DNA of 64,000 bases from Rhodamnia argentea (Eukaryota; Streptophyta; Magnoliopsida; Myrtales; Myrtaceae), in assembly GCF_020921035.1 (NCBI RefSeq), contig NC_063159.1, positions 3,782,001 to 3,846,000 of the forward strand, given 5' to 3'. Below the pieces are notes generated by a model. It was not told the DNA's origin, ran no database searches, and was given only the letters and a program-made list of their open reading frames with translations. Shown here piece after piece: positions 19,816 to 40,752 of the stretch (its first letter is position 1; each line of letters opens with the position of its first letter). The translations under genes and the position numbers were made by a program.

Positions 19816-19935
19816 CCTCGCAATAGCAAGATACAAAGACACGACAAATCCAAAACACTTGCATTTTCAAATTAGCTCTTAGCTCTTAACCTTTAGCCTT
19901 TAGCCTAGCCTAGTTGTAGCTTTCGGATCCCCGTC

Positions 19936-20174
19936 GTCGATTCAATTCCGGCGAGTATCATATCCAGAGTTAGGTGTCGTCGATTAGATTCCGGCGTCTA
20001 CTCGTTAGGTTCATCACCGTCGATTAAATTCCGGTGTTGCACCCTTCACCCATCCCGTCCAAGACCGTCGATTCAATTCCGGTATTGTGTCCTATAATTC
20101 CCCGTCCAGTCTTGTTGATTGAATTCCAGCATTGTGTCCTACGTTATTTCCCGATCCCGTCGATTCAATTCCAG
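19936..20174 (+). repeat. Six-fold 16 bp motif in LTR R/U5
   Basis: The motif GTCGATTCAATTCCGG, with one to four changes per copy, recurs six times with spacing 43, 40, 48, 47 and 45 bp. Between copies there is unrelated sequence ending in CGT or CCGT. The set is conserved in the 3' LTR (34668-34906). It lies downstream of the TATA box, so it would be in the RNA. Confidence 0.85.
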
Positions 20175-20450
20175 GGTCACGTCGAAGTCTGTCAACATAT
20201 CGTCACCATTGCGCATTGGGCCGTCGAAGTTGTCGAAAACCCGTTCGTAACGCGCCCTTTTGTGTAAATCTATTGCATTTGACACTCTCTGTCCAAAACC
20301 GACCCGGAACCCCTTTTCGGAAAACGAACGGATTAAGTTCGATAAAAGATTCTCGCGTAAGCAACCTTCATTGGGCCATAGTCAATCTGGGCTTAGAACC
20401 CATAACCAGCAAAGCCTTGTCGAGGGATTTTAACGCGCAACAATCTTTTT

Positions 20451-20469
20451 TGGCACGCCCGGTGGGACC
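20451..20469 (+). promoter_or_regulatory. Primer-binding site for minus-strand DNA synthesis
   Basis: TGGCACGCCCGGTGGGACC starts eight bases after the 5' LTR. TGG is complementary to the CCA end of a tRNA. The sequence resembles the primer site of other Tat-type elements and is closest, among those I can recall, to an arginine tRNA. I could not align it to a tRNA set, so the tRNA identity is a guess. Confidence 0.7.
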
Positions 20470-20564
20470 TTTGGTGTCGGTTCGAGAGAAGTGCTATGCC
20501 ACGCACATGAGGACGTAACAACATAGACGGTGGTGGAGACGAACCCCAGGAAGAAATACAACGA

Positions 20565-22515
20565 ATGGAGTCATCCACGGCCCACCAAGAGGACGTCGAG
20601 GTCTCTCGACGTAACATTGAGGAGCCAAGGAGAAATCCGGAAATGACGCATGTCATGTTAACATCGATAAGGCGTACCATCGAAGAAGTCCGGAACGAGT
20701 TTGCTGATCACATGGTCCAACGGATGACCGAAGTTGTCGGGCCGTTAATCATCAACACGTATCACGAATGTGCTGCGGGGTAGCATGGGACTACAATTAA
20801 TCCACCTCATGCTCAAGAAGGGAATGGTTTCGTGCCAACAGAAAACGGGGGTCTACCAAGAACAACACCGCCAAATGGAGGTCTTGCGAGGGCGAATGCT
20901 CAACCTTTAGCACCTCCGCGGATTCTGCAACGAGGGGAGACGTTGCCGGCCAATGAACCTAGACCCACGGTAAATGCGGACACATGTATGTTCCCTAGAC
21001 ATCCTATTCGACAAGATATACCTGCGGATACCGTTATGCTTCCGGGACACCCTGTTCGATAAGACGAGAATATGGCTCGTCGGGAAGTAGCTGCCCTACA
21101 TAACCCCGTCCCTATCAATGAACAACCGGTACCCATGATTATCGAAAATCAGGGGGCAATGCCCTTTAGGGGGCAATGGCAGGCTAGGGGGCAAGATCAA
21201 TTACCCCAAGTCGGGGGGCAAGGACAAGATCGACACCAGGCCGCACGACCTGGATATCGCCAGATGAATCGGGCCCTACAACCACCAGGTCCCGAGCCAA
21301 TGTTTCACTTTGTTGTGCAACCCATATATCATCCACCACAACTTGAATATCAAATGCCATATCAACCGCAGTACCATCGATCAGTATTCGACCGTGTACC
21401 CGTATACATGGACCCAATGGTAGGATACCGGGCTAATGTTTACCGAAAACCGTACCCAGATTGGATGGATACGATCCCGTATCCAAGAGGGTTTAAAATA
21501 CCCGAGTTCACATTTTTTTCTGGCGAGGATGATCAGCCCACGTATGAACATATCAATCGTTTCCTAGCACTATGTGGGGATGCTACACATGCGGATCACT
21601 GGAAATTAAGGCTCTTTCCATTATCCTTGTCGAAAACAGCCTTTACATGGTATACCGCACTACCACCCAATTCGGTGTTGACATGGGAACAGATGGAGCG
21701 CTTGTTTCATGGCCGGTTTCAAAGAGCGGTGTCGAACGGGTCGGTAGCGGATTTGTCGACAATGAAGCAAATGACAAACGAGACGGTCGACCGGTTTATT
21801 GCAAGGTTTAAACGGGCTAGGAACAAATGCTTAGTTCCTTTACCGGAAAAGACATTTGCTGAGTTCGCTTTCAACGGATTGAAATTCGAAATACGAGATA
21901 GGATGGTGGGGCATCCATGTGCAGATCTATTCGAATTATCCACGATGGCAACAAAGCATGAAAGCTCGCTCAAGGAAAAAGACAAAAGGCATACCCGAAG
22001 AGGAGATGCAAGTTTTGTCGAGCCACCCGATTTCGACGAAGAGTCAACGGAGCCTGTTGAGGTAGCCGTCGCCCAATTAACCATCGACAAGCCATACACT
22101 TGCCAAGCACCGAAGCCAGCAAGGATGAAAGAAAAGTCAACTATAATGGCTAAAGCAAAAGAGGCGGTGTACTATTCATTCGATGTGAATCGGGCGTAAG
22201 AAATTTTCGACATATCGCTGGCCGACGGACAAATCGAGCCGACGGAGGGGCGTAAGATACCGTCCAAAGAAGAATTAGCGGGGAAGAAGTATTGCAAATG
22301 GCACCACTCATGGAGCCATAACACATCGGATTGTCTAGTCCTTAAAAAGAACATTTAAGAAGCGATTCGACAAGGAAAGATCAAATTCGCTGAAGACAAA
22401 GGGAAACCCTCGATGGATGTGGACGCGGATCATTTTCCAATGATGACTGGAATGGTATCTTTAAAGTAGTCGAGTAAAGGCCATACGTCAACAAATTATG
22501 CGCTTATTGCAGGCG
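20565..22515 (+). pseudogene. gag: gag of the Tat element (broken)
   Basis: Capsid/nucleocapsid polyprotein of the retrotransposon. One reading frame runs from the ATG at 20565 to about 22515. A proline/glutamine-rich N-terminal part is followed by a typical gag core (FKIPEFTFFSGEDDQPTYEH, then FPLSLSKTAFTWYTALPP and ADLSTMKQMTNETVDRFIAR; 21500-21800). The frame ends in a zinc-knuckle-like CKWHHSWSHNTSDC (22293-22334), which keeps C-x2-H-x4-H-x4-C spacing with His in the second position. In-frame stops lie at 20781, 21060, 22197, 22356 and 22467, and the frame is lost near 22515. The largest open piece is 21072-22199 (375 codons). It cannot make a full-length protein. Confidence 0.85.
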
Positions 22516-22519
22516 AAAA

Positions 22520-23940
22520 TTGGGAAACATGAATACACCCGAGGAAGGGTACCAAAAGAGCGATCGAACTAGTCGGAGGGATAAGACGCCTTTTCACATC
22601 GAAAGTACCGGACCTCGAAGAAGTTCCAATCATCGGAGAGTTTATAAGTCATTTAAGCGGAGATACGATGAAGGGGACCCCACAATTGGTACTTTAGGTG
22701 AGCCAAGCGGCAAGTTTGATTATTACGTAAGCTATGGTCCACCAACCCCACATCCTCAAGAAAGAGTCCACTATGGATGGGGAAAGGAGTTCGACAGAAA
22801 TTTTCGACAAGGCCTTCATAAGCCACATCGTCGACGCACTCTTAAGATACCAAGCAACCCTGTAGAGGGGTCATGGTATGAGGTGACGGAAGATCAAGAA
22901 AAGGAGAAAATCTTGACCCGAACTCAGAAGAGAAGGGTGCAAAGAAAGAACAGGGTCCGCATACTACGGCAACAGGAGATTCCGGCCAGTCATGACTCGA
23001 TGGCAGCGGCTCCTAACCGCACCAAACTGCGGAGGCCGAGAAATCTGGTTTGGCGACGACGACTAGAAGAGACACACCCAGCTCAAGAAAAAGAGGACAA
23101 GGGTACAAAGACACGTAAAACATCCGCGTCTAAATCCCGATTTAAAACCCCTGTTAGCGTGTCGGTATCCCCTCTAAGCTCTTGTATGGTACGAGTTAAA
23201 TTGCCACGCGAGTTTCGACTCGAATCGACCTCAGGTGACGGCGGCGACAAAGAAACGACGCAAGAAAAGGAAGGGGCTCGGTTTTGCTTCGGCGATGAAG
23301 AAACCATGGAATTCGGGAAACCCATGGAAGATCTCTCAAATCATTTGAGGTCGCTCAATATAAATGCCAAGATCAACGGACGGCCGGTAATGAAAGTACT
23401 TGTGGATGGGGGTTCAACGTTAAATCTCATTCCATACCGCTTCTTCAAGAAAATAGGAAGAAATGATGATGAAATAATCCCATCGAATATACAATTGTCC
23501 GATTTCACTCGCGAAATTACTCAAGTAAAGGGAGTATATGTCGGCGACCCGACCGTCGGATCTAAAACATCGAGGACGTCTTTTGCGTCGTCGACGCCGA
23601 CGGATCTTATAACTTGCTGTTGGGACGAGATTGGATACATGGAAACCAATGTGTCCCATTGACGCTTCACCAGATCTTGGCATTTTGGAATGGGGACAAA
23701 GTCGAATATGTAAAAGCCAATTTCCGGACTTGTGTTACCTGGACCCGTATATCCGGCCGGGACAAAGTGATGCCGGATGATTGCCTTCGCATATCCAAGC
23801 CGCCCGAAGTGGACCCAAGAGATATTGCATTCTGCCGTTTCGACAAAGGGAATACCAAATGGATCCCAAGAAAGGAACCGGTGGAACCAATCGACCCGTT
23901 TTCCGATGGAAAGTCGGTCATTTGCGCAAAACCTCGCTAA
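22520..23940 (+). pseudogene. pol: Pol: linker and aspartic protease (frameshifted)
   Basis: The first 380 codons (22520-23662) are basic and poorly conserved, then enter the retroviral-type aspartic protease. The active-site motif is VDGGSTLNLIP (about 23404) and the second conserved motif, LLGRDWIHGN (about 23620-23650), lies in another frame. A frameshift therefore falls between about 23555 and 23600, and a second one near 23930 brings the frame back to that of RT. The protease would cut the polyprotein in the virus-like particle. Because of the shifts this copy should be inactive. Confidence 0.85.
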
Positions 23941-25540
23941 GAGGTATGTGGCCTACGGGGCCGAGCAAAGTGATCAAGCAAGACAGCTTGCAGACGGCAT
24001 TTTAGATTTTGAAGAATCCCCATTTAAGGAGGACGACAAGGTAATTCAAGCTCAAGACCCACCGGAAGAGGTCAATCTCGGAGATGAGGCCCGTCCTCAA
24101 CCTACTTATGTGAGCCAATTACTCGATCAGCGGTACAAGGTTCAAATGGTAAACCCGTTGAGAAAATATAAGGATTGTTTTGCTTGGAATTACCATGAGA
24201 TGCCGGGTCTTTCGAGGAGCATAGTTGAGCATCGATTGCCAATTAAGAGGGGATTTCGACCACACCAACAAAGTGCTAGAAGGTTTGCTCCCGAAGTAAT
24301 CCTTAAAATCAAGGAGGAGATCGAGCGTCTCCTTTCGGCCGAATTCATAAGATCAGCAAGGTACGTCGAATGGTTGTCGAATATTGTGCCTGTCAAGAAG
24401 AAGAATGGAAAACTCCGAGTGTGTGTTGATTTCCGCGACCTTAACGCGGCCACCCCGAAAGACGAGTACCGGATGCCCATGGCCGATGTGTTGATCGATT
24501 TGGCCTCCAATAATGAAATGATGTCCCTCATGGACGGACATTCCAGGTATAATCAGATATTTATAGCAGCAGAGGATGTTCACAAGACAACATTTAGATG
24601 CCCTGGGGCCATTGGTACGTTCGAATGGGTAGTCATGCCTTTCGGATTGAAGAATGCTGGTGCTACGTATCAAAGGGCAATGAATTACATTTTCCACGAT
24701 ATGATTGGGGAATTCTTGGAGGTCTACATCGATGACGTCATCGTCAAGACAGACCGGGAAAGTCATCTGGACCACCTAGAGCAAGCTTTTGAGAGAATGC
24801 GCAAATTTAAGTTAAAAATGAATCCTTTGAAATGCGCCTTCGGGATAAAAGGCGATAATTTCCTTGGTTTTTTGGTTCATCAAAGAGGTATAGAGGTAGA
24901 CATGAATAAAGCTAAGGCTATTTCAGAGTTACCGTCTCTTGATAATAAAAAACAGCTGTAAATGTTAATCGGGAAATTAAATTTATTGCGGCGTTTTATA
25001 GCTAACCTCTCGGGAAAAATCGAAGTTTTCTCCCCGTTGCTCAAATTGAAGAATGAGCGAGAGTTTGTGTGGGAAGAGAAACATCAGGTGGCTTTCGACG
25101 GGTTAAAAGAGTATTTCATCAAGCCACCAGTGTTGACGCCACCAAAGGCGGGATGGCCATTGAAGTTGTATTTATCGGCCGCCGATACAACGATCGGGAG
25201 TATCTTGGCTCAAGAAAACGACGAAGGGAAAGAGCAGGCCGTGTACTACCTAAGTAGGATGCTCAACGATGCCGAGACGAGATACACGTCCATCGAAAAA
25301 CTATATTTATCACTCTACTACGCCTGTACAAAATTACGACATTATATGTTGCCGACTACGGTACATGTAATTTGTAAAACAGACGTGATTAAGTACATGT
25401 TGTCCAGGCCAATCATTAGGGGCCGAATTACAAAATGGGCGTTCACTCTAATAGAAATTGATCTGATTTATGTGCCGCTCAAAGCGGTGAAAGGGCGGGC
25501 AATATCCGATTTCATTACCGAATACCCTTCGGGTTTAAAA
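23941..25540 (+). pseudogene. pol: Pol: reverse transcriptase and first RNase H (one internal stop)
   Basis: The frame is continuous with the protease frame. RT motifs in order are PVKKKNGKLRVCVDFRDLN (about 24385), MPFGLKNAGATYQRAMN (about 24637) and the catalytic YIDD at 24725-24736, followed by the connection GFLVHQRGIEVD. TAA at 24959-24961 interrupts the frame just before GKLNLLRRFIANLSGK. RNase H then follows (LYLSAADTTIGSILAQE, VYYLSRMLNDAETRYTSIEK). The stop separates RT from RNase H, so the copy is defective. RT and RNase H copy the RNA into DNA and remove the template. Confidence 0.9.
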
Positions 25541-26185
25541 GTCGAGGATGATGAAAATTATCCGGGTATTGCGCCTTGGATATTATATTTCGATGGGTCG
25601 GTGACATCCGGTTCAGAAGGTGCAGGTATCATGGTTATATCACCTTTTCAACGTAAAACAAAACTAATATTCAGGCTCGACTTTGAATGCTCAAATAACC
25701 AAGCCGAGTATGAAGCCCCGATCGTGGGATCGAATGTTTTAATTGACATGGGGATCAGGTCAATTAAAGTGAAGGGCGATTCTTAGTTGGTGATCAAACG
25801 GCTAAATGGTGAGTATCAATGTTTGAATGAAAACATTATTAGGCATCACCATCCGGCAAAAGAATTGTTGTCGAAGTTCGTCGAATACGAGCTAATCTAT
25901 GTCAAGAGGAGTGAAAATTCAGAAGCTAATGAATTGGTTCGGATGGCGTCGGGATATCGTATATCAAAAGAACTAGCGGACCACATCATTACTCGGGTAA
26001 GGACCTTACCATCAATAGATGCTCGGGTAATGATGATTGAGCGATCCGAAAGTTCGGGAGAAACCGGTGGCCAACAAGATTGGAGAACCCCTTTGGTAAA
26101 CTACTTGAAAAACCCAGGTTACGGCAGTAGGGACTTCAAAAGAAAAGCCTTAAAATATCTGTCGATCGACAATGAGTTATATTGA
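25541..26185 (+). pseudogene. pol: Pol: second, archaeal-type RNase H (aRNH) and linker
   Basis: After the first RNase H a second RNase H-like domain begins with WILYFDGSVTSGSEGAG (about 25576). It continues with LDFECSNNQAEYEAPIVGSN and ends at VKGDS, where TAG at 25784-25786 interrupts it. The next 132 codons (25787-26185) continue in the same frame (KRLNGEYQCLNENI, LSKFVEYELIYVKR). A dual RNase H arrangement is the mark of the Tat lineage of plant Ty3/gypsy elements. Stops at 26183 and 26198 follow. Confidence 0.85.
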
Positions 26186-27355
26186 AAGACCATCGACTGA
26201 TCGCTTCTCAAATGCTTGGGGCAAGAGGAAGCAATGCTAATCATGACGGAAGTCCATGAAGGGATCCGTGGTGCGCATCAGGCTGGATTGAAAACAAAGT
26301 GGTTGTTAAGGCGACATGGGTATTTTTGGCCAACAATCACCCAAGACTGCATCGATTACGCGAAGGGGTGTCAATCGTGCCAAAGGCATGGACCAATCCA
26401 GCAAGTACCGGCCGCACCGATGAACCCAATTATCAAGCCGTGGCCTTTTCGGGGTTGGGCAATGGACATAATAGGGAAAATTTATCCTCCCTCATCGAAG
26501 AAGCACAGTTTCATTTTAGTGGCCACAGATTACTTCACAAAATGGGTTGAAGCGGCGTCATACAAAAGCGTGACACAAAAAACGGTTAGGGAGTTCATCG
26601 AAGAGCGAATTATTCATCAATTTGGAATTCCAGAGACTATCACCGCTGACCAAGGGACGGTCTTCACGAGCCAAGAAATACGAGATTTTGCTAAGTCGAG
26701 GGGTATCAAGATGATTCATTCGACGCCCTATTACGCTCAAGCTAATGGCCAAGCAGAAGCTTCCAACAAAATAATCATCGGATTAATTAAAAAGCATTTG
26801 GAGGACAACCCAAGGGAATGAGACTCATTGTTGTCGACGGTGTTATGGGCTTATCGAACTTCCAAAAGATCAAGCACTGGAGTCACTCCTTACATGCTAA
26901 CACATGGACAAGAGGCCGTGTTACCCCCGGAGATTACGGTGCAATCATTAAGAGTAAAACTCCAGGATGGTATGGCTAAAGAGCAAGACGATGAAATGAT
27001 GTACGCCAATATTGATGAATTGAGAGAGAACCGAGCCACGTCACTGGAAAAATTGATGGCTCAGAAGCGAAGGGTTGCCAAGGCTTACAACAAACACGTG
27101 AAAGCTAAGCGTTTCGACGTAGGAGACTTGGTATGGAAGACTATTTTGCCTATGAACCTCGACAGCGAAAAGTTTGGCAAATGGTCGTCGAAGTGGGAAG
27201 GACCATACTTGGTAATAGACGCCCTCCCGGGGAATGCATATATAGTAATAGAGATCGATGGAAGAGAACTACAACGCTCGATCAACGGGAAGTATTTGAA
27301 AAAATTCTATCCATCGATGTGGGAAATGCAAGGAGAATCAGAAAGCGAAGAGTAA
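26186..27355 (+). pseudogene. pol: Pol: integrase (one internal stop)
   Basis: The HHCC zinc finger is visible (VHEGIRGAHQ, then CQSCQRHG). The catalytic core has D at 26528-26530 (ATDYFTKW), D at 26648-26650 (TADQGTVF) and E at 26756-26758 (GQAEASNK). Thirty-five residues separate the second D and the E, as in DD35E integrases. TGA at 26819-26821 interrupts the frame after NPRE. The C-terminal part (26828-27355) has the GPY-type module FGKWSSKWEGPYLV and ends at the TAA at 27353. There is no chromodomain, in keeping with Tat elements. Confidence 0.9.
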
Positions 27356-27485
27356 GAAAGATCAATTCCATTCATTCAGTAAAAACTTTTTACAATCTTC
27401 CTCCCTTTCCCTCTCTTTCTCTCTTTCTTTTTCCTTCTTTCCCTTTCTCTCTCTCCTCCTCTTGCTCGCTCGCCCCAACAGGCCC
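27356..27485. other. Pyrimidine-rich spacer between pol and the antisense genes
   Basis: A (CT)-rich tract (about 27400-27465) separates the 3' end of pol from the 3' end of the convergent minus-strand gene at 27486. It is the point where sense and antisense transcription units would meet. Confidence 0.6.
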
Positions 27486-28232
27486 TTACCGGAAGTGCTC
27501 CCTAAAACGGACCACGAAGCCTCGCAGTAGGCACTCCAACTTGGCATTCTCTTCTCTCGCGCGGTGATGAGCTTCAGCCAACTCTTCCAAGACCACCTCC
27601 AGCTTGTCCTTCTCACTCTCCAGCCGCTGAAGGTGCTCATTCCGACTCTGCAGAAGACCATTGGTAGAGTCCAACATGGCCTTCAGACCCTCCAAAGGGA
27701 GCCCAATGGAAGCCAAGGAACGGGTCTCGCAGGCTTCAGCCAATTCATGTTCCCGCTGCTCGGATTCCTTGAGAGGCCTTCGCAGTGTCGGCGGGCCGAT
27801 GGTCAGGCGGTCGGAAACAATGTTCCGAAGTTGAAGGACGCTAGCGTGAGAGGCATGGAGGGCTTCTTGGACGTTGCAGAGTTCCTTGTGCACCACCTCG
27901 CCGTTCTCAATCTCCTCGATCTTACACCAAACTTCATGTTCGGTGAGATCGTGCTGAGACATGGTCGCTAGATTCTCGCGAAACTTCTCCAGCCCGTAGC
28001 CGAAGAGTGTAACAAATTCTTCGTAGTCCGACTGGAACGGGTGGTCAGAGGGAAGATTTTGGGGCGCAGAGCGGCCGAAGCAGGCATGCAGCTTCTCGAG
28101 AGCCCGTGGTTTCACCACCAGCATGGTATAGGTGTAACTCGGAAGGGAGATAATCTCCCTCCGTATAGCCGAGAACTCACGGCTGAAGTATGTAGGAGGA
28201 GATGAAGTCGTAGAAGAAGATGCACGCTCCAT
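27486..28232 (-). CDS. Antisense gene C: intact coiled-coil protein, 248 aa
   Basis: This is an uninterrupted minus-strand ORF of 248 codons inside a retrotransposon whose gag, pol and other antisense genes are all broken. I do not recognise a named family. Residues 1-110 are mixed (SREFSAIRREIISLPSYTYT, RALEKLHACFGRSAPQ, YEEFVTLFGYGLEKFRENLA). From about residue 110 the sequence is charged and heptad-like (EEIENGEVVHKELCNVQEAL; later RNEHLQRLESEKDKLEVVLE and REENAKLECLL), predicting a long coiled coil. There is no signal peptide or membrane segment. A perfect TATAAATA box lies 77 bp upstream of the ATG. Its coiled-coil end recalls that of gene A, but I cannot show homology by eye. Function unknown. 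Confidence 0.65.
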   Translation of the reverse strand: MERASSSTTSSPPTYFSREFSAIRREIISLPSYTYTMLVVKPRALEKLHACFGRSAPQNLPSDHPFQSDYEEFVTLFGYGLEKFRENLATMSQHDLTEHEVWCKIEEIENGEVVHKELCNVQEALHASHASVLQLRNIVSDRLTIGPPTLRRPLKESEQREHELAEACETRSLASIGLPLEGLKAMLDSTNGLLQSRNEHLQRLESEKDKLEVVLEELAEAHHRAREENAKLECLLRGFVVRFREHFR

Positions 28233-28308
28233 TAGGGCTTTGAGAAGTTTTCTCTAAGAATCAAAGGCGTAAGGGTTTGGATGAAGACGCACTCCAGGCA
28301 AGTGATCC

Positions 28309-28316
28309 TATTTATA
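28309..28316 (-). promoter_or_regulatory. TATA box of antisense gene C
   Basis: On the minus strand the sequence reads TCTATAAATAGG. The octamer is the same as in the LTR and in front of gene B. A start site about 30 bp downstream would leave a leader of about 45 nt before the ATG at 28232. Confidence 0.6.
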
Positions 28317-28693
28317 GATAAAGGCCAAGGAACGGTTCATCCCACGATGCCGAGTATCCGCCCACGACCTTCCGACGATCGAGGCGGTAAAAGTTAGTGG
28401 ACGGTTATCGAGGCGAGAAGGTATATCGCGATTGGTGAAACACGTAAGTAACCATAATGACGCGAGTGGCGGGTTTCCCGCCGGCTATTAACCACGACGA
28501 ACCGTCATGACGATTTGAATTCGGAAGGAGAATCGGAAACGACGTCTTTCATTAAATGCCGCATGGAAAAAGGATGATCCTGAGAAGATCATGTCATGAT
28601 GAACTTTGAAAAATTGACACTAAGACCGGGAGTTCAATGATAGAATAAGACGATAAGGACAGGTAGCATTAATGTGGAACTAGCAACAACGGA

Positions 28694-30957
28694 CTACAAT
28701 ACGTCTTGTTCAAGATTCAAGACAAAACTATGAAGTTGCATTTCATCATTGCAGTTGGTGTCAACAATTGCCTCCTTTCGATGACCGGCCCGCATCATAT
28801 CAAGGTGCAATGATTCGCAAATTGCCTCTTGCTGTTTGACTACCTTCAATTGTGCAGATAGTACTTGCAAGGTGGTACGGCCGTCACTTTCCAGGGTATC
28901 AAGAACACTACGGCGATAAGCCGACTCATTATCAGCAAGAAGGGAATCTGTTTCCAACTTGTCGATAATCGCTAGTTCACGCCGCCTTGTCCTGAAGGAT
29001 CTTAAAGTCGAGCCAAATGTGAGGAAGAGTTCATTAATGGTAAATCCAAGGGCACGACATTGGACCGGATAGGGCAAATGGGCTAGAAAAGCAAGGAGAG
29101 CTTTGATCTCGTCCTCACCGTACGCTTGGTTACATATGTAGGCATATCCTCCTCCTAGTAAGTCATGCAAGCGTGACCACTTGCCGCGAAGGTATGAATA
29201 GTCACAGCGAAGAGTATTCGATGGGCCAACCGAGGCACTCACCATGTTCATATGAACAACCCACGATTGGTTGGGTAAGTCATCCGTGCGGCCGTTAGAA
29301 GCTAGTGAATCATCCGGGAAGAAAGTCGGATCAACAATTACATCAAGCAAGAATCCAGAGAAGTACCCACTTCCATTATCAGATTGTTTATATCAACAAA
29401 GGGTTTACCTTCATCGACTGGTTGCTCAAGTATAATGCTCGATATAACGAAAGGAGCGGGTCTTCTTAGAGGATGCAGCAAGCCCAATGAGTGTCGACGG
29501 ACTTTCGAGAGAACGTCCATCAGACCGGTTGAGAACAAAGAGGAGCGGTAGGAGAGCCACCACTTGTCGAAAAATGAGGTGCTACATGGATGGTCAGAGA
29601 AGCCGACAAATACAAAGCGCCCGAGAACGGCATGAACAACTTCGATATGGCCCATCATGTCGCTTACCTCTTTCTTGCGACCGGAGAAAGGGAAATTCAT
29701 GGAATACACCACCGGCATTGGAATCCCCTGAGTAAGCCCGAATTGGCGAGCACAATAATGAGGATTGTAAATCTCGAATCCCGATGAGAATTTGCCGCCA
29801 CCGGACAAATTCATGGCTAAGTCAGCTGGGGCAAACACACTCATCCGGAAAAGACGAGAATCGGGATCTGCACTGGAGGAGCTATAGATATCATTATCAA
29901 CGGGCAGCCTGGAGAAATCAAAGCTGGTGAGAGACAACAGTTCAATAAGAAAGTCGTCGAAAGCGGTAAGATTGTCGGGGGCACAGTGAAGGGTCCGATT
30001 GAACGCCATGGGTATATCATCCCTTTTCGATGATTCGGTTGTCGAAGTGAGTGCTTGATCAAAAAACATATGAGGAAAGTACACTCGGAGCCAATGGTGC
30101 AGAATCCATAAAGGACCCGAAAAGGGAGCATGATGATTGTCCATCAGCGAAGATTGAGCATCCGACAATCCTCGATATAATGCAGCCAGGAACATCCGGC
30201 CTAGGCCAATATTAACACCACATGCCAGTTCATAGGTCATATCAAGAAATTCTGAGGAAATTCGACATGTGGGGAGACAAAAAACATATTTGCAAAGCTA
30301 ACATAGAATGAAGGCTGTATGTTCCTCGAGAAGAATGGGTCCCGAAGGTTTAGCATGGCGATCCATGAATTCGCCGTATGACAGGTCAAGGCAGCAGGAC
30401 GTATCAAGGAAAAATTGGTCGTCCGGAGGACGAGGGTCACCGTCGATAAATGGAGAAAGACCGGTCAAAAATCAAATATCAAGAAGGGTAGGAGTCACTG
30501 GACCAATAGGCAAAAAGAAACAGTTCGATGACGGTGACCAAAAGCAACACAAACTACCAACGAGGCTATACTCCGAGGGGTCAATAGATGTACCGCAAAA
30601 GGACAATAGGACATCTATCCCGGCTTGTGCCCGGATGGTAGCTGCTTCTCCTTTTAGTCTTTTGTACCAGTTGTAAAACTAATGGTCGAAGGTTGGGTAT
30701 GAAGAAAATCTATAGTTACTCGACGACCAAGCAGAGGTACAAATAACGGATTGCTCAAAGGGTAAGACTTCTTCAGAGCAATGAGGAAAGCAAGTAATCA
30801 GTGAAGAAGGGGGTGGCAAACTTGTGAGATGCGGACCCAAAATTATGTGACCATTGTTGGGTTGGTGATCCATGAAGGATAAGGAAAGTTCCCTTTTGGC
30901 ATCGTTGTGAGAAAAAGCGTCGAAGCGCGACAGGCGTGGAGCTGCGCGAGTACTCAT
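28694..30957 (-). pseudogene. Antisense gene B: plant mobile domain (PMD) protein, broken
   Basis: One minus-strand frame runs from the ATG at 30957 to 29338, with three in-frame stops (complement of 30679-30681, 30472-30474 and 30298-30300). A one-base shift near 29340-29370 then carries it to 28694, about 754 codons in all. The PMD signature is FFLPIGPVTPTLLD followed by FLTGLSPF. Further on are LSYGEFMDRH, SGPLWILHHWLRVYFP and NPHYCARQFGLTQGIPMP. The C-terminal part (28694-29350) is charged and probably helical. It is a clear paralogue of gene A. PMD proteins of plants (MAIN/MAIL type and transposon-borne relatives) are linked to silencing and gene expression, but the role of transposon-borne copies is unknown. 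An exact TATAAATA lies 51 bp upstream of the ATG. Confidence 0.75.
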
Positions 30958-31007
30958 GTGAACTTGATAGCAAAGTTCGTATGAAATTGGCGTTTGGAGG
31001 CAATCAT

Positions 31008-31015
31008 TATTTATA
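31008..31015 (-). promoter_or_regulatory. TATA box of antisense gene B
   Basis: The minus strand reads CCTTATAAATAATG. TATAAATA is 51 bp upstream of the gene B ATG (30957), giving a leader of about 20 nt. Confidence 0.6.
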
Positions 31016-31128
31016 AGGGATTTTGAAGTAACCGACTCGGGATTGAGATGGCAGTTACTCGGACGTGGGCAATTACATGGATCGTGGCGTAATGCAATAC
31101 GGAAAATAAGGAGAAAGAAAGGGAGATT

Positions 31129-33953
31129 TTATTGACGAAAATCGGGATCTGGAGCCGTCTTGATCTCCTCAAGCGGTTCACAGAGTAAACGTTCAAACTT
31201 CTTATTTTTATCTATGTACATATTCCTAGTATGACGTCGGTCTACTTCTGCCCGCATAACCCGAGCGCAATCGGCTCGTTTCCTCTCTTCTAAGGAAGTC
31301 GCGAACGTTTTCGGTTGATCTTCTATAGAGGATCGACGAGAAAGTATTGTCGATCGCCGACTTCGAGTCTCCTCTAGTTCTCTCTCTATCGCCGGTCTTT
31401 GTTGCTCCAGGGTAGCCTCCTTCTTATCTAAAGCAGCAAGCTCGTCGACAGAGGATTGAAGGGACTGTTCTCCTTGAGTTACAAGTTGCCTCGCCTCTTG
31501 AGTCTCGGAGCTAGGAGAAAAGAGCTGATCGGGAAAATTCGACTGAGCAAGCACCTTGTCCCGACAACGTCGAAAATGCATAAAGGGAGTAGGAAAGTGC
31601 TCCAAGAATGTTTTCAAATTGCAGACTAAGCCTTCAGGAAGCTTCGCGCTGATTTCCTCTTTGACCGACCACTCCATCACGGATTGGATGTTTCAAATAT
31701 TCGATGGGTTGTCAACAAAAGAGGCTACCCCTGAATGAACAAGGTCGAGGGAGCAAGATAGCATGATTCCCAGCTTGCTGAAAATCTCTGAGTCAGGTGA
31801 GCTGCTTGATTCAGGCATACTCGGGTGATCTGAAGAGCGAGAAGATCCAGCGGGATGAGCTTGAACGTCTTCGATGGGCGACGGAAGAAGAGAAGCAGCG
31901 GGAAGATCCCGGATAATATCCGCAGATGAAGGGTCTTCAGGTGTTGAGGGACCTTCAGCTATTAAAGGAGCTTCGACCATCGGGGTCGGGACAATGGCAA
32001 GGGTCATCGAAGAAGGTTCCCCTTGAGGCTCTATAGGCGAAGGAGCCGCGGGTTCGGACGGATCCTTAGCAATGGTAATATTGCTAGACCCCCCAATGAG
32101 TGGATCAAGATCTACCAAAGAATCTTCAGGACAAACGGTTGGAGACGCTTCGACAAGTCGAGGGACTATCGGAGATTCCACCGGAGATTTGCTCTTCTTC
32201 GCTATCATCTTTCGCCGTTTAAGAGAAGTGAGCGTCTCCTCATCGGCTCCGTCGTCAGAATCGTCACCTAACAACGAACATAAAGCAAAAATCACCTCGG
32301 GCCAGTAACACTGCGAAGACCGGGAAGAAAGAGACCCACCCGAAACGGTCGTCGGACGTTTGCGACCACCAATCGAGAGGGCTCTGGTGGCACCCTTTTT
32401 CCTAGTTTTCTTCAAAGCGGGACCAAAGGGCTGTATCCGGCTACTCTAGAGGATGGATGAGATGGCATCTTCGAAAGGGCTTTCGAAGGCAAAGGACGTC
32501 CACCAGGTCGTAAACTCGGAAGTCACGCCAGGGCTAGAACGAAGTATTGTTGGGATAACCCCCGAAAACCACCGGTACATCATGGTGGTAATCTCGGCAC
32601 AGCGGGTGAACGGTTCGTCAATCTTGATATTATACATCTTCTTGTCCATCGATGGGAAATCCATGAGATAAGGGATAGGCATAGGCACCGCCTGTCGAAG
32701 ACCGAATTGCCTAGCGCAGTAATGAGGAGAATATGATTCGAAGCCTGGATAGAACCTACCCTTAAGACATAGCCGGATTGGAAGGTCTCTAGGGAATAGG
32801 ACAAAGGTCCAAAAATCACGGTGGTTGAACCGTTTCAAGGTTCGAGAGTTGAAACAAGAATTGAACTCGTCTGAGCGGTAAGGAAAGAAATCTATTCGAT
32901 CAGCCTCGTGAGACAGAAGTCGTCGAAGGAAGAACCGAAAAGGCTGAACATCACCGGGGACCTTTGAGGGGACAGCTTGGAGTAGTCGTATACCAAGCTT
33001 CAAAGGAACCATGTTGGGATTGAAGGAAGGGACGCTCTCAAACATGAAAGGGAAGTAGAATGCAATCCAAGATTGAAGAATCCAGAGCGGCCCCGACAAG
33101 ACACCATCCTCTTCCGAATTCGACATTAGCCGAGCGGCATAAGAAACACTCCTGTACGAGACGCAAGAGCAAGAGGGCCAAGGGCAACAAGATTCCCTTT
33201 TGCTAGAAGTAGGGCGAGATCGTAATAGTCCTTGGACACTTTGAGTGTTGGGCTAAAGAATAGATATTTCGATGACCGAGTTAAAAGAAGGAAGGTCATT
33301 CGTTCCTCGAGGGAAACATCCCCCGGACGTTTTACTATGGGCATCGATAAACTTCCCATAAGCAAGAGAATCGTCAGAAATGGGGCAATCCTTAGTTTTT
33401 CCTAGATTCTTGACCGAGGCCCCATAAGGAGAGAGACCAGCTATGACGAAAGTATCTAGAAGGGTTACAGACATGGGACCCCACGGGAAGAAAAAGCAAT
33501 TAGTGGAGGAGGACCAAAAGCTTGTAACGGACCCCCAGCGAGACCTCTATTCAAATCATGGGACAACATGCCGACCTCAAGTGCTGTCCCGATTTGCGCT
33601 GTTTCCCGGAGGCCAACTGTTGGAATATCCTCTTGAAGCCTTTGGAACCAAGTATAAGCCCTGTCATCAAATGACGGAAAACTCCTAAATCGCCGAGCCG
33701 GCATGGACCAAATGTCCTTTAGCGAAGAAGCTTGAATGGGAAGCTGCTCGTCGGCCCGCATTGGAAAGCAAGACCGAAGAGATGATGGAATGTGGTGGTG
33801 ATCATGGAGACTAGGCCCGAGAATGAGACCGGCGTGCTCTCGTCGAGAGTTCAACAACTTGAGGAAACGGTGATCGGCGTTATCACTATTGATGATCCCA
33901 TCGAAGCGGGCGATGAGTTGGTGAGAAAGGAACTCGGGAGTTTCGGTCGCCAT
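31129..33953 (-). pseudogene. Antisense gene A: PMD protein with coiled-coil C-terminus, broken
   Basis: About 940 codons run from the ATG at 33953 (MATETPEFLSHQLIARFDG) to 31129. The PMD core is FFFPWGPMSVTLLDTFVIAG and LSPYGAS. It continues through SGPLWILQSWIAFYFPFMF and SYSPHYCARQFGLRQAVPMP, with the same order and spacing as gene B. After the PMD there is a Ser/Pro-rich linker (31693-32415, starting KKTRKKGATRAL). A predicted coiled coil follows (LAALDKKEATLEQQRPAIER, then ELEETRSRRS). Damage visible: frameshifts near 33490, 33310 and 33180, TAG at 32446-32448 and TGA at 31693-31695. A telomere-box-like AAACCCTAAACC lies in the 5' leader. No intron is visible. It is inactive as it stands. 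Confidence 0.75.
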
Positions 33954-34030
33954 GAAAGCTTGGAATGCTCAGAGAAAGGGGTTTAGGGTTTAAGGGAAAA
34001 CCGCTGATGAAGAAAGACGACAATTGGGAG

Positions 34031-34040
34031 CTTTTTTAAG
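34031..34040 (-). promoter_or_regulatory. Weak TATA-like site upstream of antisense gene A
   Basis: The minus strand reads CTTAAAAAAG about 80 bp before the ATG at 33953. It is much poorer than the exact TATAAATA boxes of genes B and C. I list it because it is at the expected distance. Confidence 0.25.
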
Positions 34041-34208
34041 ATCCTTAAAAAGCAAGATGAAAAAGGCCGGTGCACGGTACGAAGTCGAAAAGGTTGCGCT
34101 TTGGGAAAAGAGATCAAAGGGAAAGCGTAATCATCATTTGTATAGCTGGAGATCACCAAACCAGAGGAAGATATTTTAAAAGAGGTAAATCTTCGATTTA
34201 CATCTTTT

Positions 34209-34219
34209 AAGGGGGCATA
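34209..34219 (+). promoter_or_regulatory. Polypurine tract
   Basis: AAGGGGGCATA directly abuts the 3' LTR, which starts TGTTGACAC at 34220. It is the expected plus-strand primer, and its form (purines followed by a short CATA) is common in Tat-type elements. Confidence 0.8.
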
Positions 34220-35174
34220 TGTTGACACTTAAAATAATCCAAGAGAGACTCGTGACAAGCACGTGAGGAAGCGATAATCAGCTACGGGAAGGGACACCGA
34301 AGCAAGGAACGTATCAATCAGAAAGGTGCCACGTGTCGGGATAAATTCTGGCGCCACTTCCTTCTAGAGCAAGAAAAGCGCGCGGAGGGAGGCCACGATC
34401 GAAGCGGTTGGCGGTAATCCCCACGAGGTAAAAAGAAAAGGCGCGAAGACTAGGAAACCGTCATCCACGTGGCTTATGGAAAAGAGCAAAGCGTGGGGGC
34501 AAAGGAAGAAACCGCTCAGCGGTTACCAAAGAGCTTGCCTATAAATACCTCGCAATAGCAAGATACAAAGACACGACAAATCCAAAACACTTGCATTTTC
34601 AAACTAGCTCTTAGCTCTTAACCTTTAGCCTTTAGCTTAGCCTAGCAGTAGCTTTCGGATCCCCGTCGTCGATTCAATTCCGGCGAGTATCATATCCAGA
34701 GTTAGGTGTCGTCGATTAGATTCCGGCATCTACTCGTTAGGTTCAGCACCGTCGATTAAATTCCGGTGTTGCACCCTTCACCCATCCTGTCCAATACCGT
34801 CGATTCAATTCCGGTATTGTGTCCTATAATTCCCCGTGCAAGGCTGTTGATTGAATTCCAGCATTGTGTCCTACGTTATTTCCCGATCCTGTCGATTCAA
34901 TTCCAGGGTCACATCGAAGTTTGTCAACATATCGTCATCATTGCGCATTGGGCCGTCGAAGTTGTCGAAAGCCTGTTCGTAACGCGCCCTTTTGTGTAAA
35001 TCTATTGCATTTGACACTCTCTGTCCAAAACCGACCCTTAACCCCTTTTCGGAAAACGAACGGATTAAGTTCGATAAAAGATTCTCGCGTAAGCAACCTT
35101 CATTGGGCCATAGTCAATCCGGGCTTAGAACCCATAACCAAGAAAGCCTTGTCGAGAGATTTTAACGCGCAATG
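34220..35174 (+). repeat. 3' LTR (955 bp)
   Basis: It starts TGTTGACACTTAA and ends GCGCAATG, where the 5' LTR has GCGCAACA. It is the same length as the 5' LTR and differs from it by about 35 substitutions (hand count), including a dense cluster near 34837-34845. It carries the TATA box at 34540-34547 and the six GTCGATT-type motifs. Confidence 0.95.
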
Positions 35175-37469
35175 GATACTAAATTTACTAATGAATAAAG
35201 CATAAATATCATGCACATCTAACATCAAGTGATAAGCTATGCCAATCATAATAAGAAATGAATAGATTCATTTTACAAATGGTGTGATTAAATTAATTGA
35301 TTTTCTTTGTTGGATATATTCATATGTCTATATCTAAGGTTTGCGTAAAACTACAATCAATAAAATTTTCGTAATTCTACCTTCTCAAAAGGAGGGATAT
35401 GAAATTGTTTTTACTTTCTTAGGGATCATGAGATTGAATCTAACTATAAAAAGAATGCTAGACTGATAAAAAGCTCGCTTATCTTATAGTCGGACGTGTA
35501 ATTTAGACATAATGTCCCAACTATAATAGAATGAGGCTTTTAATGATCATAGCAAGCTTAAAAAAACCTAGAGGTTGGAAAATAAAAATGGCATAAATCA
35601 GGCCGATATCATATAGATTAGTAGGTAAATACCTCTTTCTAATATGTATTAATTTATACTTTTATCCTTGTGTCCATATTCTAGAAGTGATGAGTTGTTG
35701 AGGACATTTTGGAAAGAAAAAAGATTTCCCTCAAAATAGGCATATCTCTTTTCATCATTGTGATTTGTTCAATGTGGCCATCGAACTATTCTAAATATTC
35801 AATCTAATATATGAACTTTCAATTTGTTTAATTTAGTCCCTCAACTCTTCATAGAAAGTCTTCAGTTTTCATAAATGTTGTATTGTTTGGAATTTAGGAT
35901 ATCTTTACATCAACCCATTTCCTATTTCAATAAAAAAAAAAAATATGACCATCTTTTGTATTACCTTTTTACTTTTTTGGTCTTTACAAATATTAGGATA
36001 GTTCATTTGAGTATATTTTAGCTTATAATATTCATAATAGTGAAAGTAAAATCTCATTTAGAATTGCATCGAGTTGATATTTTTGTTATTTTTATTTCCT
36101 GATTTACAGATCAGACTAAATTTAGTAAGAAAGCATGACGTTAAAAATAAGTTTTATCTATCTAAAAAATTAGGAACAAGTTTCAGAATAATTTAACTGC
36201 GAGGAGTCTATAGATAGATTGGTATCGTCATTAACTATTCTTAGGAAATCACTTCTTTTTAGAATAAAATGGATGTAAATCAATATCACTCTAAATGGTT
36301 ATATTTTGACTATATTGAATATCATAAGTAAAAATATATCTACATGGGACTATAGTAATATTTATATAGCGTAAATAATAGAATAATTGTGAAAATTTTG
36401 GAATAGTACTGAACAATCGATTTGACTTTGTTATGGGAACTAAATTGAACAAAATAAAAGTTTAGGTATTGTATTAAATATTTATGAATAGTTCAAAAAT
36501 CATATTAAACGAACTAAAAGTGAATGAATGATTTTGTATATTCAGTTAGAATTCAGGGATTATTTGTATTATTATTTCTAATTATACTTGTAACTCGTTG
36601 CAATTTGTGTCAACAACGCATGAAAATTTGATTGAAAAAGCTAAAATTGCGTGCCGTAGCTCACGACAAAGAGAACATAAAAATTCGGCATGTCATTTTA
36701 TGTAATATTTGTATCTTTCTATTCATATTTTGTGTTTTTTCTCGTGTCATATTCTCGATGTGTGAGTAGATTATGCCTAACATTACCACATATATTCATT
36801 GTGTATTACGCGAATTGTCACGAGTTTCCAATAGGCATTTGCCAAGCACGTGTTTCTAAAAAGTCTACGATTTTTATCTCTCACTTTTCTCACGTTACAT
36901 GTAAAAAATACTTTCAAAATCAAGCCATTTCATACTAAATTTACCAAATGAATAGCCTTTGCAACAAAATTCATTTTGTTCTACAATACACAAATAAACA
37001 AATAGATAAATTGATTTTCCCAATCGAACCTAACGCGCCTCCTTAATCGTCGGTTGTCCGTCGGATGCCAGCTTGCCACGGTCCTTGTATGGCAACTTAA
37101 ATCATCTTCCTTCATCGAGATATTTATTATATACGAAGTTGGGTTGGGCTGTCTTCGTAAGGCTCCGTTTATTTAACGAAAAGTAATAATTTTAAAAATG
37201 TGTTTTTTAAATTATATATTTTTGGCGAATCAAACGGGTTCGGTATTAAAATGCCTTGATGCTACGGCAAAATGTGATACTTCTATCGGTTGTAGGATCA
37301 TTCGGCCTTGTCGCCGGTGGTGACTGGTGTTTAGCCAAAACCTTTGAATTTAGGGTTTTTCTTGTCGGATTTTATCCGTGAAGAATTTGGAGAGAAGTTT
37401 CCTCAAATTGGTGAAATTGCCGGAATCTAAGGTCGAGAAGGAGGAGGTTGCATAGATTTCCGGAGGAAG
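35175..37469. other. AT-rich intergenic region with a long inverted repeat
   Basis: No gene is supported. The region contains the inverted-repeat element listed at 35771-36505 and A/T runs. The last few hundred bases (about 37100-37469) should hold the promoter and 5' UTR of the HAKAI gene, with an AT-rich TATTATATAC segment at about 37125. Confidence 0.5.
35771..36505. mobile_element. Candidate MITE with about 90 bp inverted arms
   Basis: The left arm (35771-35865; CGAACTATTCTAAATATTCA, then GTTTAATTTAGTCCCTCAAC) matches the reverse complement of the right arm (36410-36505; TGAACTATTCATAAATATTT, then GTTCAATTTAGTTCCC). Similarity is roughly 70-75% by eye. I could not fix exact ends or a target duplication. 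No coding sequence lies between the arms. Confidence 0.45.
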
Positions 37470-40400
37470 ATGCTTCAGATTCGATTGAAGAGGGACCCGA
37501 TCTCCGAGGGTGGCGGAGGGTTGAAGCCGTCGCCCGTGGAGACCGTGACGGTCGCTTGTCCCGACCACCTCGTCCTCGCCGACCTCCCGGTGGCGAAGGG
37601 CCTCGGGTCCGTCGCTGCCACCTCGCTCGTGAGGCCCGTCGGCCGCAAGTCTCGCCGCCAGCTCGGCGAGCGCGTCCACTTCTGCGTTCGCTGCGACTTT
37701 CCCATCGCCATCTATGGGCGCCTGGTGTGCATTCTTTGTTGCTTGATCGAACGAGTGGATGTCAGGGCCTTGGTCGCCTTGCTAACAGGTTTATTCCTTG
37801 TTTTTTGTTGGCAGAGTCCCTGTGAGCATGCCTTTTGTCTGGACTGTGCTAGGAGTGATTCAATCTGTTATCTGTAAGTACGTCTTTCCTATGGCGCTCG
37901 TTACGACAAAATGCATCTCCTTAAGCAATACTGGGTACGGTTTGCGCTGTCTAGTTGGTGTAATTTTAGTGGATCCGGGGTTCTGAAAATGAAGACGAGT
38001 GCAAACTCTGGCTTGATAGAGCAGTCTCCATGTATACATGAAACTTAGACTAACCCCCCAATTAAACAATTGTGAAAGGAGACCTGCTTTAAGAATCATC
38101 ATTTAGTATCTCCTCTGTCATATCTTCCTCATCTTATTGTACTGCCCTGTAATATATCTTTGCCTGCCAAGTTCTTTGGTTCCTCAACTGATTCCTATGT
38201 TTGACACTGTAAGTTTCTCGGTCACCTCGGGATAACTAGAATTTTAGTCGGAATATCAGTAGTAAATGGTCTGCATGTGACGTGACTATGGTAGATGTTA
38301 GATTCTCAGGCCGACAAGTAATGGCGTAAGATAGAGAAAGAGAATGGACTAGCTATGACAAGGTGCGAGTGCAGAAGGATCTGGATCAAATGTAGCATTA
38401 GGAGCATCAGCTGCAATGACAATATTCTGGATGTTTTCACTGGATTTTGTGTTTAGGATACTCAAGATCCTCAATGTGAATGAGTATCCTCAATGTGTAG
38501 ATGGTCACTGGTTGGGATGGAGTGTATGCATCTTCTAAGTAATCATGATCATGTAAACTGAGTTTTTGATATGCGGAATTTCTGTGTTTTGACCATCCAA
38601 TAACTACATTTAATGGCTGAGGCTAACTCAATTTTTTTTCATTAGTCAGGAACTCTACAGTAAAGGCACATTCTTCTGTTGATCTGTTTGTGTCAGAATT
38701 CCCAACTAGTTATGCAATGGCGATTTTTCTGCTGCTTCTGAGATTTTTATGTTGATTTTAGTCAGTTTGCATGGTGTGTGACCTATTATAATTTGTTAGT
38801 CTCTTACTGGATCCTATTTTCTAGTCAAGCAGCTGAAGTGGAGTGAACTGGAGAGTTTATTCATGAATGGAACGGACTGTGTTGAACTTTTGTTTGCCCA
38901 CTTGGATTTATATACCCATACCCTGCCTGCCCTCTACATGAGAGCAATGTAATTCTAGGTGACACAAATGTCACATGCAATTTTATGTTGGGTCCTATAG
39001 TTGGTTCAATGCATTAGTCAATTATTTTCTTTGCTGGGATAGAAAAATTAGGTCAGATTTTATTGGTAAATTAGATTGTGGCTTTTGGGACAGGATGCCG
39101 AGGGTATCTCTCTTTGCAATGATCTATTAGCAAAACATAACAGAACGTAAGCAAGTTCAGTGCTTGCAATGGGAAGATAAATGTACCAGGTACTTGCAAC
39201 GGGAAGATTAATGTTTGCAAGAAGCAAATTGCTTTGTCTAAGGGTAGACTTATTGCTTCTTTGCTACCATTTGCAAGGATAGCAGAACAAGAGCAAGTTG
39301 AGTACGTGCAAAAGGAAAAATCATTGAAGCACATTGCTTTTTGTAAGGGTAGACTGATGCTTCTTTGTTGCCATTAGCAAACTATTGGTGGGGGTATTTT
39401 ACTATTCTTCACCTGTTTCTTAATTAAAATGTAGCAGCTGCAGAAATTATAGCCTTCAGGGCAACGAACAGTAACTACATTTTGAAAATTTAATTGTAGC
39501 AATCATTTCTAGCATTGAAAACTTTATGAGATCATATTGACGAGTGAGCTGAATAAATAGTTAATTCTTTGTGTGACGCAGGTGTGATGAGCGTATACAG
39601 AAAATTCAGACCATAAAGATGATGGAGGGAATCTTTATATGTGCAGCACCCCACTGTCTGAAGTCTTTTCTAAAGAAAAGTGAATTTGAATCTCATATAC
39701 ATGAGACCCATGTTGACCTTCTTCAGCCAAATGCTGAAAAGGAAGATGGAAATGAATCAGATGCACGCGGTATCAAACAATCTGCTGCTTCTGATTCTAC
39801 TGCACGAGCTCCACCGAGGCCTGTCTTTTCTCCTGGTTCATCACAGCTTCATGATCGTGACGACAAGGCTCGCCATCAGCATGGTAGAGAACAGCCTCCT
39901 CCAAGGCCAATTATGCACCAGAAGCCACCGGCTTTCTTAGGGCAGGTCCAAAACAATCCTTCAGATTTGCAAGCAGACAACCAACGTCTTCCGGGGTTTG
40001 ATAGGCGCTTCCATATGGATGCGCAGGGTGGACCACAACAAGAATCTAGCCATTTCCCAGAGAGACAGCCTGGAGTTTTATCAGACTCTCCCTTTCAAGA
40101 ATACCCTCTGCATTCTATTCAACAACCAAACTTTGTTGTGCCATTACAGTCCAATCAAATGCTGACGCCCCCACCTCCTTTCAGTTTCCCTCCTTTCCCC
40201 ATGGAGGGAGCTCAACCATTTTTTCCCGCACCCTATGATATAGTGCGGCAGGATTCAGCTCCTGAAGGTGGTCCAGAGCCAGGTTCATTGTTGGGATTCC
40301 CACCAGGTCCGCCTGGTGGTGTGAACTTCATGGCCGGCTATCCTCAGCCATGGAACACTGGGATGGCTGCACCATTTGAACCTCCAACAGGAGGCCAAGG

Positions 40401-40752
40401 AGCTGGAGATGGTTATGCAAATCCTGCAGATGTCCAAGGAAGAATCCCGTTATACCAGGGTGAATACATGCGAAATTCAGGAACATTACCTTTGAATCCT
40501 CCTCCCCCACCTCCTTTAGCTAGCAAGGGTATGGAAACTGCTCGAGGAGGTAGCAGTGTCGATGTAAGAGATGGCAAGGGAATATTGGCACCACAACCCT
40601 TGCCCCTTCCACCACCACCACCGCCGGGACCTCCATCTCACATTTCGCAGATCCAGCGGGGCAAGTTCTATCCGGGCGATATGGGGCATGAGGGACAGGG
40701 TTATGGGTGGCAGCAAGAGAACCGGGATAGCTTCGGGAGCAGTCACGAGTAG
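37470..40752 (+). CDS. HAKAI: E3 ubiquitin ligase HAKAI, three exons, 494 aa
   Basis: Exons are 37470-37724, 37815-37873 and 39582-40752. Both introns are GT-AG and the phases fit. HAKAI is a nuclear RING ligase that in plants belongs to the m6A mRNA methyltransferase complex with MTA, FIP37 and VIRILIZER. The HYB-type domain is complete. C72, C75, C88, H90, C93, C96, C103 and C106 form the RING, and C125, C130, H143 and H148 form the adjoining C2H2 finger (GIFICAAPHC, then FESHIHETHVD). The rest is a long disordered proline/glutamine-rich tail with PPPPPP runs, as in other plant HAKAI proteins. The RING is split across all three exons, which is what fixes the gene model. Nothing looks broken. 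Confidence 0.93.
39142..39385 (+). repeat. Diverged tandem repeat in HAKAI intron 2
   Basis: Two neighbouring segments (about 39142-39286 and 39287-39385) share AGAAC-AAGCAAGTT, TTGCTTTG-TAAGGGTAGACT and TGCTTCTTTG-TACCATT. The first has an additional internal repeat of ACTTGCAA-GGGAAGAT. It lies wholly in the 1.7 kb intron, so it does not alter the protein. Confidence 0.6.

Follow-up and report, generated by a model that had tools for sequence, protein, structure and literature searches.

An antisense block of three genes, including a pair of plant mobile domain genes, is resident in a probable Tat-type retrotransposon family of Rhodamnia argentea

In Ogre retrotransposons, 57% of elements carry the plant mobile domain (PMD; pfam10536) in an extra open reading frame (eORF), and reverse-oriented eORFs at the 3' end form a named class (Neumann et al. 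2019, PMC6317226). Two PMD clades, PMD-A1 and PMD-A2, are confined to Gypsy elements and widespread in angiosperms, and the domain is also found in a host gene family (Ikeda et al. 2017, PMC5418596). The PMD proteins that have been studied in Arabidopsis function in silencing and gene expression (PMC5418596, PMC7156037), and MAIN and MAIL1 bind each other and PP7L (PMC7156037). For Mutator-like elements (MULEs), speculation about interference with host silencing, similar to that pursued below, has been published (PMC5418596). In Grande, an antisense gene has its own promoter (Vicient and Casacuberta 2020, PMC7264820) and its protein is nuclear (PMC7264820, PMC11963269); a search for antisense and spliced transcripts has been urged (PMC7264820), and PMC9289625 is among the sources for PMD and antisense eORF features already in print. 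Here we analyzed a 64-kb stretch of the R. argentea genome (GCF_020921035.1, NC_063159.1 3,782,001-3,846,000, forward strand), referred to throughout as the window. It contains a long terminal repeat (LTR) retrotransposon, delimited at 19488-35174 by paired LTRs and a target-site duplication, in which the 6.9 kb separating the integrase stop (27355) from the 3' LTR (34220) holds three minus-strand genes, C, A and B. A first-pass annotation of this DNA had pointed to antisense ORFs in Tat-type elements such as Grande and the action of host PMD proteins in silencing and expression; both points are documented (PMC7264820 and PMC11963269 for the former, PMC5418596 and PMC7156037 for the latter).

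The three genes are laid out as follows.

27486-28232, minus strand: gene C, 248 amino acids, open, no Pfam match over the cut-off
28694-30957, minus strand: gene A as a whole, PMD paralogue of B
29409-30957, minus strand: gene A exon 1, with the PMD (PF10536, E 6.4e-14) and three in-frame stops
28694-29313, minus strand: gene A exon 2, a proposed C-terminal domain, from frame and selection signs across copies
31129-33953, minus strand: gene B as a whole, PMD paralogue of A
32340-33953, minus strand: gene B exon 1, with the PMD (PF10536, E 9e-9), frame breaks and one stop
31129-32267, minus strand: gene B exon 2, basic and low-complexity, then a tail that is coiled-coil-like by eye

All three large frames at 27486-33953 run antisense to the element, as the first-pass annotation had stated. 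Both A and B scored above the gathering cut-off of the PMD family (34.9 bits): PF10536 matched the A piece 29338-30297 with 52.3 bits (E 6.4e-14) and the B piece 32446-33252, barely above the cut-off, with 35.4 bits (E 9e-9). The two proteins align collinearly from the N-terminus to the end of the PMD, with a core that is about 32% identical, and the SGPLWIL and PHYCARQFGL blocks are present in both, confirming that they are PMD paralogues. A conserved basic stretch marks the PMD end of B. As a correction to the first description, B possesses a C-terminal domain of its own at 31129-32267, as does A at 28694-29313. Both genes are broken in the window copy, A by three in-frame stops within its PMD frame and B by frame breaks and two in-frame stops. 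Searched on its own, the A PMD piece found no homologue at E 0.001 in a set of 5.8 billion proteins, and the A PMD had no match among viral contigs and no match by sequence in the PDB at E 1. An AlphaFold2 model of A, aligned with B, reached a pLDDT of 31.8 and was not used.

Gene C had been described as a different, intact coiled-coil gene. It is indeed separate and open over 248 amino acids, and its C-terminal half is coiled-coil-like as judged by eye. A profile scan returned no Pfam match above the cut-off for C, and the 5.8-billion protein set no homologue at E 0.001. For the TRP28 family (PF04195), no match was found in C at E 1 or, at E 0.1, in eight pieces of A and B, with 30237-30464, 30472-30678 and 33253-33546 lying outside the scan. 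The idea that C is the tail of A was rejected, since A owns a tail and C owns an ATG and an apparent TATA box.

We searched the 346.7-Mb assembly, in which the window lies on contig 10, with the DNA of C, A and the integrase, scoring the best 40 of 112, 40 of 126 and 40 of 163 candidates, respectively, window included. Of the integrase hits scored, 33 had a C or A match, among those listed, as a same-strand neighbour; the sequence of the remaining seven was read, and all carried C, the spacer and A. Among these 40 of the 163 candidates, an integrase copy lacking both C and A thus never turned up; this check looked for C and A, not B, and the other 123 candidates were unscored. Flanking sequence was read for 20 of the 39 C loci outside the window, and in all 20 the integrase, C, A and B followed one another in one order and on one strand. 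Eighteen of these flanks were whole up to the beginning of the LTR; of the two truncated ones, L011 is missing part of A and B, and L025 the start of B together with the LTR. The three-gene antisense block is resident in this family and ordered. The expectation that C, A and B always occur together, in the same order and on the same strand, thus held in 20 of 20 flanks, with C and/or A at 40 of 40 scored integrase hits, and neither relatives devoid of the block nor a block present in one copy only, the outcomes that had been named as refuting it, came to light in this sample. Describing the region as DNA that is "not retroviral" was too strong, since the block has long belonged to the element. 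The broken state of A and B in the window copy would suit open frames that arose by chance, or a single nested insertion, but these counts refute that explanation, to which we assign practically no credence.

C, A and B are under purifying selection. Across 21 copies of the family, we compared the ratio of nonsynonymous to synonymous changes (N/S) present in at least three copies with that of singletons, which are mostly post-insertion; the copies are related to each other, and the p-values serve as guides. In C, N/S was 50/66 for shared and 116/73 for singleton changes (odds ratio 0.48, p 0.0014). The corresponding values were 94/92 vs 234/107 in A exon 1 (odds ratio 0.47, p 3.5e-5), 40/37 vs 97/45 in the A tail (0.50, p 0.013), 73/124 vs 297/128 in B exon 1 (0.25, p 1e-14; the count omits 33157-33467, where the window frame is broken) and 75/78 vs 173/83 in B exon 2 (0.46, p 1.6e-4). 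A control, the spacer between C and A, gave 24/7 vs 78/31 (1.36, p 0.81). Setting the sharing threshold at 2 or 5 left the picture unchanged for all changes taken together. Between loci, the ratio of nonsynonymous to synonymous divergence (dN/dS) was 0.134/0.556 = 0.24 for C against L054, 0.141/0.633 = 0.22 for A against L050 and 0.087/0.738 = 0.12 for B against L050; in more distant pairs, dS was saturated. The dN/dS comparison across copies that had been proposed as a check therefore indicates purifying selection in all three genes, within the family and between loci.

Several observations weigh against so simple an account. A second control, the stretch before B, leaned the same way (16/10 vs 88/32, odds ratio 0.58, p 0.17). 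When transversions alone were counted, which leaves few counts, C, A exon 1 and B exon 1 fell short of significance at a threshold of 3 (p 0.053, 0.17 and 0.052), and lowering the threshold to 2 let just two parts pass, exon 1 of A (p 0.038) and exon 1 of B (p 0.0027); exon 2 of A and of B failed, without a lean toward constraint. One plus-strand frame mirrors the selection signal, probably through third positions that coincide with those of the coding frame. The integrase piece, with a dN/dS of 0.05 against L054, is under stronger constraint than C, A or B. In addition, the C frame is whole in just 8 of the 21 copies, so its openness in the window copy is unremarkable alone.

When the genome was searched at the protein level for the PMD of A, the best 125 of 424 candidates were scored, with identities down to 51%. 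From these we hand-picked ten divergent loci (A protein 51 to 74% identical), counted as loci rather than as separate element families. C is present at 8 of the 10: it lies between the integrase and A at L051, L053, L054, L055, L056, L058 and L059, and at L057 A is interrupted and C is cut by the end of the stretch read. Four divergent loci were read on the B side; at three of them B stands beside A, with B cores 82%, 51% and 51% identical to that of the window. Exceptions to the shared arrangement are L050, where other sequence takes the place of C; L052, which has reverse transcriptase (RT)/RNase H parts there with no integrase and no C; and L051, where no B is adjacent and only a B-tail fragment was found 3.4 kb away.

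We built a PMD tree of 14 rows, comprising A from five loci, B from four loci and five other PMD rows of the same genome. The tree splits the A rows (support 85/92, below the program's mark for firm support) from the B rows (99/99) and sets A and B jointly apart from the other five at 100/99; the program flags long branches, which makes the outer joins less sure. Given the A/B split, the A-B duplication most likely predates the divergence of the sampled loci. That the genes were captured from the host and are carried as passengers would be in keeping with the existence of a PMD host family (PMC5418596) and of other PMD loci in this genome. The grouping of A with B apart from those other rows, the retention of the block in the copies read and at most divergent loci, and purifying selection all run counter to this, and we regard it as very improbable. 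Long joint retention of the gene set suggests that the element uses the genes.

PMD sequences are abundant in this genome in general, on many contigs (for example at L032-L042; 2465 candidates, of which the best 117 were scored). On contig 2, five PMD matches fall within 22 kb (29032414-29054872), three of them without internal stops, and two loci of this cluster, L029 and L030, were the only ones among 14 PMD loci read to be matched by the A or B core at E 0.01. Several of the PMD loci that were translated carry a domain of an FHMPEGE...TITLEDIA type with a split at about profile positions 196-237, which seems to represent a different mobile family; at L041 (contig 5, 20147300-20149600), two stretches of this type lie on one strand with starts 0.8 kb apart.

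Candidate signals for expression of the block were found on the minus strand.

28309-28316, minus strand: TATAAATA box, 77-84 bases ahead of the start codon of C, the same in 20 of 21 copies
31008-31015, minus strand: TATAAATA box, 51-58 bases ahead of the A start codon, identical in all 20 copies retaining the site and deleted in 1 of 21
32268-32339, minus strand: proposed intron of gene B, 72 nt, phase 1, with GT and AG in 21 of 21 copies and shared in-frame stops within
29314-29408, minus strand: proposed intron of gene A, 95 nt, phase 1, with donor GTAAAC in 21 of 21 copies

In the whole window, the minus strand has five occurrences of TATAAATA, two of which precede A and C. Position and conservation strongly suggest that these two are antisense TATA boxes; no box of this type was found for B. 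The boxes would equally be expected if antisense transcription itself were what matters, regulating the element through double-stranded RNA or promoter interference with the proteins secondary, a possibility raised for antisense ORFs in PMC7264820. Protein-level purifying selection in C, A and B, both within the family and between loci, and its absence from the spacer speak against this explanation, and we think it improbable.

The sequence of B strongly suggests a phase-1 intron after the PMD. The donor is mostly GTGAGT or GTGGGT across the 21 copies, the three-base rhythm of the neighbouring parts is lost within the proposed intron, and in-frame stops occupy 12 of 458 cells there vs 33 of 13,485 in the coding parts next to it; the bounds were picked after inspection, so this stop and rhythm test lacked blinding. 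Three divergent loci have, at the corresponding position in B, a GTAAGT, GTAAGC or GTGATA donor and an AG acceptor, and joining across it yields a continuous frame in phase 1, as in the window family. Some features of B fit this gene model poorly. At L052, the B frame is open even unspliced, and five shared stops lie in B exon 2, outside the intron. The codon at 32431-32433 is CAG, CTG, CGA, CGG or TGA, with TGA in 7 of the 21 copies; TGA would end B just past the PMD and may reflect a second, shorter form or recurrent loss.

Splicing of A in the window family is doubtful. Here the 3' end of the proposed intron (29314-29315) reads GG in 18 of the 21 copies, and inspection of the region for a conserved GT-AG pair that keeps the phase and has a good acceptor found none. 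The removed length of 95 places the A tail in a different frame in this family. Of four divergent loci read, three end the intron in AG; over all five A loci, four show a GT donor at the phase-1 position and three an AG, with both present only at L050 and L052. Taking A and B together across the divergent-locus comparison, eight of nine donors and seven of nine acceptors are canonical and lengths range from 63 to 117 nt, several of the proposed introns being very short (63-77 nt). Alternative A introns of 39 nt, of 254 nt and at 29341-29238 were dropped for length, a weak acceptor or a non-coding-like rhythm. After the intron, A and B restart with a similar acidic stretch, and the intron is therefore probably older than the A-B duplication.

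A and B would thus share one gene plan, in which an N-terminal region and a PMD are followed by a phase-1 intron and then a C-terminal tail. Gag-pol is copied from sense RNA, on which, by established splicing rules, the complement of such an intron should not be recognized for splicing, and antisense genes can therefore retain introns through retrotransposition. The sense genomic RNA of this element would bear such a complement, unreadable for the spliceosome, and the intron would outlast each reverse transcription. By the same reasoning, introns in antisense genes imply that these are read as their own spliced messages, and we propose that A and B are expressed from spliced antisense mRNAs. 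Retention of a diverged PMD pair suggests that A and B may work together as two partners in one complex, like MAIN and MAIL1. Such proteins would act in the nucleus on the host PMD silencing and transcription pathway to the benefit of the element.

The account we hold likeliest, with a little more confidence than doubt, is that the block is an old accessory antisense module of a Tat element whose nuclear role on the host PMD pathway favours the element. Taken alone, a nuclear role that shifts this pathway is a tentative proposal, which we would back with somewhat less than even confidence. More specifically, the PMD pair could imitate MAIN-MAIL1 to blunt or redirect silencing, with PMD-A1 and PMD-A2 corresponding to the A/B module and C serving as a dedicated partner; this version we consider unlikely. 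The proteins could instead serve replication through nucleic-acid handling, nuclear import or particle assembly, in the manner of retroviral accessory proteins. Regulatory or retrotransposition roles have been favoured for antisense ORFs (PMC7264820, PMC11963269), the Grande protein is nuclear, and C and the tails are coiled-coil-like by eye, with a basic stretch at the PMD end of B; the Arabidopsis PMD proteins that have been studied, however, act in silencing and expression, and we rank a replication function next, as possible though on the doubtful side. The block bears on whether the extra ORFs of plant retrotransposons have any function. An element-encoded counter-silencing protein set becomes a testable idea, given that the genes are selected in one family and mostly retained in divergent relatives and that the PMD pair recalls a host silencing pair. 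With the intron conserved, spliced antisense RNA would serve as a simple diagnostic, and the intron could also explain why the antisense placement is kept.

The remainder of the element has the following parts.

19488-20442, plus strand: 5' LTR (self-BLAST 19489-20440, edges refined from the letters)
20451-20469, plus strand: primer-binding-site-like stretch TGGCACGCCCGGTGGGACC, read from the letters
21072-27355, plus strand: gag (Retrotrans_gag), protease-like piece, RT, RNase H, partial second RNase H and integrase, from Pfam and frames
34209-34219, plus strand: polypurine-tract-like stretch AAGGGGGCATA, preceding the 3' LTR, read from the letters
34220-35174, plus strand: 3' LTR (self-BLAST 34221-35172, edges refined from the letters)

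The LTRs are 955 bases each and 96.7% identical by self-BLAST, and a GATAC target-site duplication, read from the letters, lies outside both of them at 19483-19487 and 35175-35179. The pair differs at 34 of 956 aligned sites (Kimura two-parameter distance 0.037), which corresponds to about 1.4 million years at a rate that we take to be 1.3e-8. TGGCACGCCCGGTGGGACC presumably resembles the 3' end of a tRNA-Arg. The gag-pol region is interrupted by stops and its protease-like piece scores under the Pfam cut-off; gag, RT, RNase H and integrase follow in the order of Ty3/gypsy elements. By eye, the frame from 25400 shows motifs of a second RNase H, placed after RNase H and ahead of integrase; a stop splits this domain and only half of it scores, below the cut-off (RNase_H E 0.014, RVT_3 E 0.04); in the relative L052, RVT_3 matched at E 2.8e-13 adjoining the RT/RNase H frame. 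A second RNase H in this position characterizes the Ogre and Retand clades of Tat (PMC6317226). The element probably belongs to the Tat lineage of Ty3/gypsy and is probably Ogre-type, since the PMD points to Ogre according to the same source. Elsewhere in the window, 4486-13897 holds a tandem duplication of 4.7 kb at 87.7% identity that contains shorter repeats, and 39619-40752 a 377-amino-acid plus-strand open frame that matched no Pfam family at E 0.1. Scanning the window for Rfam families and for tRNAs yielded no match.

The suggestion that the block may be undescribed stands in part. PMD eORFs and reverse 3' eORFs are in print (PMC6317226, PMC5418596), whereas the literature searched, as far as its accessible text goes, nowhere describes a tandem pair of PMD genes conserved alongside a third gene, and nowhere reports that antisense genes of this sort contain an intron. 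The nearest relatives are the PMD eORFs of Ogre, which share with the window element, itself probably of Tat type, a PMD in an extra ORF and the known reverse 3' class; unlike what we describe here, the eORF text of PMC6317226, in the portions available, mentions no tandem pair, third gene or eORF intron. PMD-A1 and PMD-A2 resemble A and B in being two Gypsy-encoded PMD types, a comparison made by description only (PMC5418596). The antisense ORFs of Retand, Grande and RIRE2 resemble the window genes, with a promoter of their own in Grande (Vicient 2025, PMC11963269; PMC7264820), but encode TRP28, whereas the window block has PMD genes and a gene C without a PF04195 match. MAIN and MAIL1, with PP7L, form an interacting PMD pair to which A and B may be likened (PMC7156037); they are host genes of the PMD-C clade, whereas A and B group separately from the five other PMD rows included in the tree. 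What the window element probably adds to these systems is the conserved TATAAATA boxes ahead of both A and C, together with a phase-1 intron that B probably has and whose homologous counterpart in A is partly decayed.

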